Part shown: positions 11,084 through 37,180 of the stretch, one piece after another
How the letters are laid out: each line of letters starts with the position of its first letter
How positions within the stretch are numbered: position 1 is the first letter of the stretch
Assembly (NCBI GenBank): GCA_002069525.1
Contig: MWBJ01000003.1
Location: 1-39,874 of the forward strand
DNA: 39,874 nt
Direction: 5' to 3'
From: Parcubacteria group bacterium ADurb.Bin305
GTDB lineage: Bacteria; Patescibacteriota; Minisyncoccia; UBA6257
Notes under the pieces: generated by a model
What the model was told of the DNA's origin: nothing
Database searches by the model: none
Seen by the model: only the letters and a program-made list of their open reading frames with translations
Position numbers and translations under genes: made by a program

Positions 11084-11413
11084 GATAGAGCTATAATGCG
11101 TACTAATAATTGATTTTTAATAAAATAATTGGGAAGGTATTTTTAAATTCCGCGTTAATTTTTTGAAGTTAATATCTTGGTGGCCAATAATCTAAATAGC
11201 CGTTGAGGTCTTCTTGGTCTGCACTAAATTGATAATCAACTTTTTATTTTTCTAAGTTACCGGTGGCGCGATTGCCTATTTATCAAGTAAAATATAAGAC
11301 AAGTGACTACTTTTGAGATCGTTATTCTATTTTACCTAATTTATTTTACTTACCTTTTAAATATTCTATTCAATACCATGTCACTTATATTTTAGATGAT
11401 TTGATATGACCTC
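11084..11413. other. Intergenic stretch without an intact gene
   Basis: About 330 AT-rich bases after mutM. The only thing noticed is a short minus-strand protein-like fragment (11169-11279, separate entry). No RNA fold or repeat stands out until the promoter at 11414. Confidence 0.5.
11169..11279 (-). pseudogene. Possible minus-strand gene remnant (C-terminal piece)
   Basis: Read on the minus strand, this stretch gives IGNRATGNLEK, an in-frame TAA (11253-11255), then KVDYQFSADQEDLNGYL followed by DYWPPRY and a stop at 11169-11171. The composition is protein-like rather than random AT-rich text, but there is no start codon and the fragment is short. It may be the tail of a decayed gene or chance. 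Confidence 0.25.
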
Positions 11414-11441
11414 TTGACAAAATTTTTTTATCTGATAGGAT
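11414..11441 (+). promoter_or_regulatory. Promoter of the tandem-hairpin RNA
   Basis: A perfect -35 hexamer TTGACA (11414-11419), a 16-nt spacer, and TAGGAT (11436-11441, four of six consensus bases). The expected transcription start, about 7 bases downstream, coincides with the first base pair of the first hairpin (11448). Confidence 0.7.
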
Positions 11442-11447
11442 AGTAAT

Positions 11448-11540
11448 GATGTTATTTGAAAGCCGCAAGGCCGACAAATAACATCACTGCTGTCTCTTTG
11501 AAGCCGCAAGGCAGAAAAGAGGCAGCATTTTTTATTTTTT
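11448..11540 (+). ncRNA. Candidate small RNA with two tandem GCAA-capped hairpins
   Basis: Hairpin 1 (11448-11485) has a perfect 11-bp stem GATGTTATTTG/CAAATAACATC, a 3x3 internal loop (AAA/CGA), then GCC-GCAA-GGC. Hairpin 2 (11488-11527) has a 12-bp stem with one G.U pair, a 3x3 purine loop (GAA/AGA), then the identical GCC-GCAA-GGC cap, and runs straight into a T tract. Promoter, two like-shaped hairpins and terminator together make a free-standing gene of about 90 nt. I do not recognise the family. The outer stems of the two hairpins have different sequences while loop, cap and architecture are the same, which suggests that structure is what matters. Confidence 0.65.
11488..11540 (+). terminator. 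Intrinsic terminator (hairpin 2 of the small RNA)
   Basis: The 12-bp outer stem TGCTGTCTCTTT (11488-11499) with AAAGAGGCAGCA (11516-11527) is followed by six T, one A and six more T (11528-11540). The second hairpin therefore ends the transcript as well as forming part of the RNA. Confidence 0.75.
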
Positions 11541-11695
11541 AGTATCTTGAATCTAATTATTCTAATTAATTTAGTCAAAAATCTAAGTTAACCATTATGA
11601 GTAAATTTTAAATTCGTCTAGATTATTTTAAGTCCTCTCAAAAATTAATTTAGGGTTAAAAGATTTTCTACTATACTATAGACTGAGACGCCTTA

Positions 11696-36775: not shown

Positions 36776-37180
36776 ATGTCTCAAGTCAAAAGTCAAAATT
36801 CAAAAGTCAAAAATGAAGGTCAAAATTATAAAAATAATTTAAAAAATAGATGTTATCAATTTAGTTTAAAGGTTATTGCTTTAACTGATAATCTACCCAA
36901 TAAAAGAAGCGCTTGGGTTATCACTAATCAATTAATAAGAGCTGCCACTTCTATTGGAGCTAATCTGATCGAAGCCAGAGCCTCAAGTTCTCGTCTGGAA
37001 TTCAAGAAATTCTATGAAATTTCCCTTAAAAGCGCTAATGAAACAAAGTATTGGTTATTTCTCTTAAAGGATGCCAAATTAGTTGACGATAAAATAATTC
37101 TTCCTTTCTTAGCTGAAATTACAGAAATATCCAATATGCTCGGAGCTAGTGTCATAAAACTTAAAAACAAACACTTTTAA
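36776..37180 (+). CDS. Four-helix-bundle protein (23S rRNA IVS/S23 family)
   Basis: A 134-aa protein of the family encoded in 23S rRNA intervening sequences and as free genes in many CPR and Bacteroidetes genomes. Diagnostic text: FSLKVIALTDNLPNKRSAWV, NQLIRAATSIGANLIEARAS, FKKFYEISLKSANETKYWLF. Helices run from about 25 to 130. The fold is shared with Avd, the accessory protein of diversity-generating retroelements, but no reverse transcriptase is present. The first 17 residues (MSQVKSQNSKVKNEGQN) are the readout of a DNA repeat, AGTCAAA units, and the same unit in reverse orientation follows the stop. Function unknown; nucleic-acid binding is plausible. Confidence 0.88.
   Translation: MSQVKSQNSKVKNEGQNYKNNLKNRCYQFSLKVIALTDNLPNKRSAWVITNQLIRAATSIGANLIEARASSSRLEFKKFYEISLKSANETKYWLFLLKDAKLVDDKIILPFLAEITEISNMLGASVIKLKNKHF
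36783..36827. repeat. Left inverted copy of the 7-nt repeat
   Basis: Units AGTCAAA, AGTCAAA, ATTCAAA, AGTCAAA, then a degenerate AATGAAGGTCAAA. These are reverse complements of the TTTGACT units that make the 486-bp tract on the other side of the gene. The left copy lies inside the coding sequence. Confidence 0.8.

Follow-up and report, generated by a model that had tools for sequence, protein, structure and literature searches.

The first-pass annotation of a 39,874-nucleotide stretch of DNA from Parcubacteria group bacterium ADurb.Bin305 (the whole stretch is called the window here) drew attention to positions 11414 to 11540, where it proposed a free-standing small RNA with two tetraloop-capped hairpins. 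The locus raises the questions of whether such an RNA gene exists, whether it belongs to a known class, and what its product might do. Our analysis indicates that the locus is very probably an independent gene for a structured noncoding RNA of ~88 nt. To judge from sequence comparisons, this RNA belongs to a multi-copy family in which units with a single hairpin predominate, and it represents the form with two. The family appears to be nearly confined to one family of Paceibacterota/Parcubacteria.

A two-hairpin transcription unit upstream of murA

The unit comprises a promoter, two hairpins and a T tract (Table 1). Its -35 box is perfect, as first annotated. The predicted transcription start is G11448, 7 nt past the -10 box and within the first base pairs of hairpin 1. 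Thus, the annotated start on the first base pair holds to within those pairs, whereas the -10 box on which it was based is only a fair match (10/12 positions agree over both hexamers). In this AT-rich window, promoters of such quality are not above chance (4 found, 4.0 expected). The promoter is credible because it is conserved in relatives, not because of window statistics.

Table 1. Coordinates of the two-hairpin RNA locus in the window
Feature	Position	Strand	Evidence and conservation
-35 box, TTGACA	11414..11419	+	Sequence; no change among the 6 two-hairpin relatives or in the 21 aligned single units
16-nt spacer	11420..11435	+	Length 16 in nearly all family units; 65% identity between genera
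-10 box, TAGGAT, preceded by TG (extended -10)	11436..11441	+	Relatives have TAAACT, TAAAAT, TATAAT, TATACT
5-nt linker	11442..11446	+	Length constant at 5; sequence varies, 47% identity
Hairpin 1: 12 bp, 3x3 loop, GCC-GCAA-GGC cap	11447..11486	+	Folding; covariation, with both-side changes in helices 1 and 2
Hairpin 2: plan of hairpin 1; terminator hairpin	11488..11527	+	Folding; covariation; T6 directly after
T tract, T6, predicted 3' end	11528..11533	+	Sequence; kept in every family unit
Spacer duplicated with the RNA on contig C10	11534..11690		Alignment; on C10 leads to RNase P RNA gene

Folding and sequence bear out the shared internal plan of the hairpins and the T tract after the second: each hairpin folds as 12 bp, a 3x3 loop, 3 bp and GCAA, and a single unpaired base separates the two. 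The 88-nt RNA has a minimum free energy of -42.7 kcal/mol (z -8.7), and none of 200 shuffled sequences was equally stable. The hairpins are each exactly 40 nt long and identical at 27/40 positions. The outer stems, described at first as unrelated, are therefore not wholly so, although the outer arm alone reaches only p = 0.06. Across two-hairpin copies, hairpins 1 and 2 are of equal length and share 22-27/40 positions. The resemblance suggests, but does not prove, that the pair is the product of a hairpin duplication.

The upstream gene, fpg, ends 330 bp from the unit, and murA, which is codirectional with it, starts 224 bp past the T tract. No separate fpg terminator and no strong murA promoter were found in the window. 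Elsewhere in the window, an ORF at 36776-37180 (134 aa) presumably resembles the four-helix-bundle family of intervening-sequence proteins in 23S rRNA.

Two-hairpin relatives

A search of 60 relatives and of the window's own genome produced a near-identical copy (99%) on contig C10 of the latter, and two-hairpin copies at 74-88% identity in G003, G004, G005, G006 and G010. All belong to the taxonomic family of the window organism. Among named records, the unit occurs in Parcubacteria group bacterium AS27yjCOA_186, Patescibacteria group bacterium UBA6257, bacterium AUK197 and Candidatus Paceibacterota bacterium STD1_107. Outside the family, the two-hairpin model (R1) also matched at G135:C21 and in G214, at sites that have no promoter or no T tract and are regarded as chance; echoes on the opposite strand simply reflect the palindromic sequence.

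The matches start near the -35 box and finish near the T tract. Among the six genomes, each of a different genus, the flanks are unalignable, with mean pairwise identities of 30% just upstream and 36% just downstream. Identity is 100% in the -35 box, 65% in the spacer (always 16 nt), 47% in the linker (always 5 nt), 85% in hairpin 1, and 88% in hairpin 2 with the T tract. The alignment has 99.4% of its cells paired and 6 pairs changed on both sides, a result as high in 0/500 shuffles. Compensatory changes, which the first-pass annotation had named as a check on its reading, are present in both hairpins. Because terminator hairpins covary anyway, only hairpin 1 gives RNA-level evidence beyond termination.

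The C10 copy is part of a duplicated segment of ~280 bp with ~98% identity (window ~11409-11690; C10 = L035 4962-5256), consisting of the RNA and ~150 bp downstream. The segment leads to murA in the window; past the C10 copy lies an RNase P RNA gene (RF00010; G000:C10:15460-15933, minus strand; L035 4461-4934, minus). Conserved synteny of fpg, the RNA and murA was considered and rejected, as fpg and murA are apart in G007. Just downstream of the G010 two-hairpin RNA there is an exact 122-bp direct repeat (L041 4433-4554 and 4655-4776; G010:C3).

A larger family of single-hairpin units

The structure is conserved in relatives, and the weaker matches of a covariance search with the two-hairpin model, in G001, G007, G008 and G009, revealed single-hairpin units with the same promoter geometry. 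The common plan is TTGACA-16-TATAMT-5-TGCT...AGCA-TTTTT, with one hairpin (34-58 nt) or two. Exact copies of the pattern number 10 in G007, 12 in G008, 7 in G009 and 2 in G001, and a reversed control pattern gave none. A second model, which includes the promoter, produced 12 matches in G007 and 15 in G008. It also produced a third unit in the window's genome (G000:C8:3152-3250, with a 58-nt hairpin) and one unit in G003 (C30:2536-2628). In the same order, but in other families, it matched one unit each in G013 (C7:45907-45987) and G135 (C18:13946-14051). Family units are found in 10/11 genomes of the window's taxonomic family, at up to 15 copies per genome, and as two singletons elsewhere in the order.

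Wider searches did not extend this range. A strict geometry pattern applied to 379 genomes of the phylum matched in G007 only, and the four further matches of a looser pattern all lack the family geometry. Two promoter-hairpin patterns run against viral contigs gave no match with family geometry and a good fold. In a wider scan of genome contigs, the folded, family-geometry matches among those listed are family records only, and the rest are chance.

We catalogued 45 units. Where TTGACA is present, the spacer is 16 nt in all but one and the linker 5 nt; in G007 and G008, the promoter of three units is weaker, with a -35 box of TTAACA or CTAACA. These -35 variants are overlapped by an inverted repeat, GGATTAAT...ATTAATCC (G007:C3:35839; G008:C3:82551 and 85319), which is possibly an operator. 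Family units make up 13/271 terminator-like hairpins in the G007 sequence examined, and a promoter at the family offset precedes 13/13 of them, compared with 0.8% of random positions. An alignment of 21 single-unit stems is 98.8% paired, with 28 cells changed on both sides (0/500 shuffles as high) and the three outermost stem pairs invariant. The sequences of spacer and linker drift while the promoter register stays fixed. Another short hairpin abutted by a promoter, at G007:C4:156203 (AGTGCCCGCAGGGGCATT then T4), has a 16-nt spacer and a different stem, and could represent a similarly designed but unrelated RNA.

A distribution of this kind could also arise if the unit were a repeat that spreads selfishly or passively, either as a MITE-like element or through recombination, and in which promoter and terminator are incidental. 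Copies do move: their positions mostly differ between genera, the C3 (window) and C10 copies share the ~280-bp segment, and the G006 copies and a partial second copy in G004 lie at contig ends. Nevertheless, we consider this origin unlikely. The conserved region is bounded exactly by the transcription unit and not by inverted repeats, we saw no target-site duplication at the ends of the C3 and C10 copies, and the compensatory changes, together with the fixed register, imply that transcription and folding are under selection. Moreover, one orthologous site is kept between genera: in G003 (C30) and in G007/G008, an ATP-cone-like gene (52% protein identity) has a unit on its 3' side, with hairpins that differ in sequence and length.

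Comparison with known RNA classes

The first-pass annotation recognized no known RNA class, and the Rfam search agrees. No Rfam 15 family matches at gathering threshold at 11414-11533 or for the units in 13 relative loci. The best sub-threshold scores are those of the PyrG_leader (19.4 of 65 bits) and the L31-Firmicutes leader (17.1 of 33.3 bits), and matches at permissive E-values are chance only. A plain intrinsic terminator, single or double, which would have contradicted the annotation, does not describe the locus either: hairpin 1 is followed by one base and hairpin 2 instead of a T tract, and the promoter register is conserved.

Two RNA chaperones, Hfq and ProQ, were searched for. The Hfq domain (PF17209) was detected in 0/11 family genomes, with 5 controls positive, and the ProQ/FinO domain (PF04352) in 0/11, with the E. 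coli control positive. Accordingly, a ProQ-dependent structured sRNA was rejected, as was an Hfq-dependent trans-encoded sRNA, for which the fold also provides no unpaired seed.

At the sequence level, the units have the conserved promoter, terminator, structure and separateness of independent small RNA genes. The annotated reading of a free-standing RNA with its own start and stop is supported. The comparative data thus give good support to what appears to be a previously unclassified, lineage-specific, multi-copy family of structured RNAs.

Independence from neighboring genes

A good terminator lies between the upstream gene and the -35 box in 11/39 units (one of these terminators is the neighboring unit of a tandem pair); an example is AAAAACAGGGCTAAATATAGCCCTGTTTTT, 26 nt before the -35 box. 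A strong promoter resides directly past the T tract, before the next gene, in 22/45 units, and in tandem pairs this is the promoter of the next unit. The G003:C30 unit has a gene on either side, and each of these has a terminator of its own. Because the gene upstream of many single-hairpin units has a terminator, and the gene downstream a promoter, of its own, we regard the units as independent RNA genes rather than as leaders or terminators. By these sequence signals, a 5' leader appears to be ruled out for most units, and a mere terminator for many.

Control of a downstream gene by regulated read-through, as in an attenuator, riboswitch or other 5' leader, is highly improbable. Most single-hairpin units do point at a codirectional gene 55-200 nt away. 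However, that gene often has its own strong promoter past the T tract, as counted above, and 5/8 two-hairpin units are convergent with the downstream gene and leave none to control. In addition, the hairpin begins at +1, with no room upstream for an antiterminator. The rejection of a leader is based on the family, as the window copy itself is codirectional with murA.

The units might alternatively punctuate transcription in cis: polymerases launched from a strong promoter would stop at once at the terminator joined to it and so insulate the neighbors, with the RNA a by-product. The start and stop signals are indeed the most conserved parts, and the RNA body varies freely if it folds. In genera g8 and g2, 27/35 single units are located between codirectional genes, often just past a stop codon. 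Many units directly behind an upstream stop codon have no separate terminator before them, and these may also serve the upstream gene as its terminator. As a general account, however, punctuation seems improbable: many neighbors are already equipped with a terminator or promoter, the gene downstream of a two-hairpin unit is often convergent, and hairpin 1 terminates nothing yet is conserved and covaries.

Some units separate the small genes of tandem clusters (G007:C6:2-10 kb, L108; G008:C3:34-45 kb, L110). The small genes encode hydrophobic N-termini, some are paralogous, and they adjoin rplJ/rplL-like genes; the cluster differs between species. An enrichment of exported proteins downstream of G007 units was weak and dominated by one paralog cluster, and was set aside.

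DnaA boxes upstream of the promoter

In 13 units, the consensus DnaA box TTATCCACA precedes the -35 box at a distance of no more than 30 nt, once in reversed orientation, and the G003:C30 unit is a fourteenth case. Units with the box span G001, G003, G004, G005, G007 and G008. These represent five genera, so the association is not merely the result of recent copying. In the 480 kb of G007 examined, TTATCCACA occurs 8 times, 5 of them at units. Two further sites fall at C6:115.9-116.1 kb, in a cluster of TTATCCACA/TTATCCCCA words (G007:C6:115899-116110) that is a candidate for the replication origin.

These sites raise the possibility of a replication-linked element, in which DnaA would bind just upstream of the promoter and either control the units or be titrated by them. 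The number of boxed units, the share of G007 sites at units, the two sites at the candidate origin and the spread over five genera all point this way. However, neither the window's own copies nor most G009 units have the box, and we hold such an element to be rather unlikely. It would be more speculative still to propose that DnaA-linked multi-copy hairpin RNAs report or modulate replication state, through a shared protein, in these host-dependent minimal bacteria.

Tetraloops, stem base and possible function

Among two-hairpin units, caps are GCAA except in hairpin 2 of G010, which has CUUG. Most single units, among them units of g8 and g2, have CUUG, and the G013 unit has UUCG. All three are classic, very stable tetraloops, and their exchange therefore suggests that stability is the common factor, rather than recognition by a GNRA receptor. 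The receptor docking envisaged in the first-pass annotation is thus not upheld, and a GNRA tetraloop-receptor RNA was rejected. Hairpin 1 keeps GCAA in all six two-hairpin genomes, and docking by that loop alone is compatible with the data. The most constant sequence is not the tetraloop, but the stem base, 5'-UGCU...AGCA-UUUUU-3', whose conservation could come from the needs of initial transcription and termination.

The units are small, intergenic and multi-copy and end in a rho-independent terminator, a layout like that of trans-encoded sRNAs, and their loops could act on mRNAs by base pairing. We judge this very unlikely. The longest unpaired stretch is a tetraloop or one 3-nt side of an internal loop, the loops are the exchangeable part, and neither Hfq nor ProQ was detected in the 11 genomes.

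Because no Hfq or ProQ was detected and there is no antisense seed, protein binding in trans is the leading guess. That the RNA acts in trans as a protein binder has, in our estimate, somewhat less than an even chance. The explanation that we prefer as a whole, an independent multi-copy RNA gene whose product acts in trans through a protein, is likewise offered tentatively, although it comes slightly nearer to even. In this model, RNA polymerase would initiate at the base of the first hairpin and terminate at the last one, and the product would be paired from its first nucleotides up to the U tail. The paired 5' end would presumably resist 5'-end-dependent decay and allow the RNA to accumulate. 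A protein would then be bound through the hairpin, with copy number setting dosage. The binding site, if any, is more likely at the stem base than at the tetraloop. Inner stems and internal loops vary among copies within a genome, and such a protein would therefore read only the stem base and general shape.

Significance and comparison with known systems

Keeping 10-15 hairpin RNA genes, each driven by a promoter, means that a genome of ~0.5 Mb spends space on something. Each unit is a clean, testable RNA gene, consisting of a start, a hairpin, a stop and nothing more; if the units are expressed, few known multi-copy RNA genes would be simpler. The DnaA boxes offer a concrete hypothesis on their control. 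Little is recorded on small RNAs in Patescibacteria, and our literature search produced nothing relevant.

OOP RNA of phage lambda is short, has its own promoter and terminator, and has an antisense target on the opposite strand. It is one of the closest known systems (PMC5869508). In contrast to OOP, overlap with the 3' region of a gene is not general among the units described here.

Correia repeats of Neisseria are short palindromes, dispersed in intergenic regions, that can supply promoters or small RNAs. MITE-derived RNA genes, for example those of Coxiella, resemble the family in the same way, as dispersed short palindromic intergenic repeats that give promoters or small RNAs (PMC5896051). 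Unlike either, the units are bounded by the -35 box and the T tract, not by inverted terminal repeats, and selection is on promoter register and folding.

LhrC regulation works through unpaired motifs, whereas the RNAs of this family have no comparable unpaired region. The likeness to the multicopy LhrC sRNAs of Listeria monocytogenes lies in several near-identical genes within one genome, each with its own promoter and terminator; LhrC is reported to regulate a target mRNA (PMC4132741). GraL, the terminated leader RNA of E. coli greA, is similar in being a short RNA with an intrinsic terminator close behind its promoter; its terminator hairpin is preceded by 19 nt, and its control of greA is exerted in cis (PMC6829880). 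The present units differ from GraL in that the hairpin starts at +1, and in being multi-copy and often separate from the promoter of the next gene.
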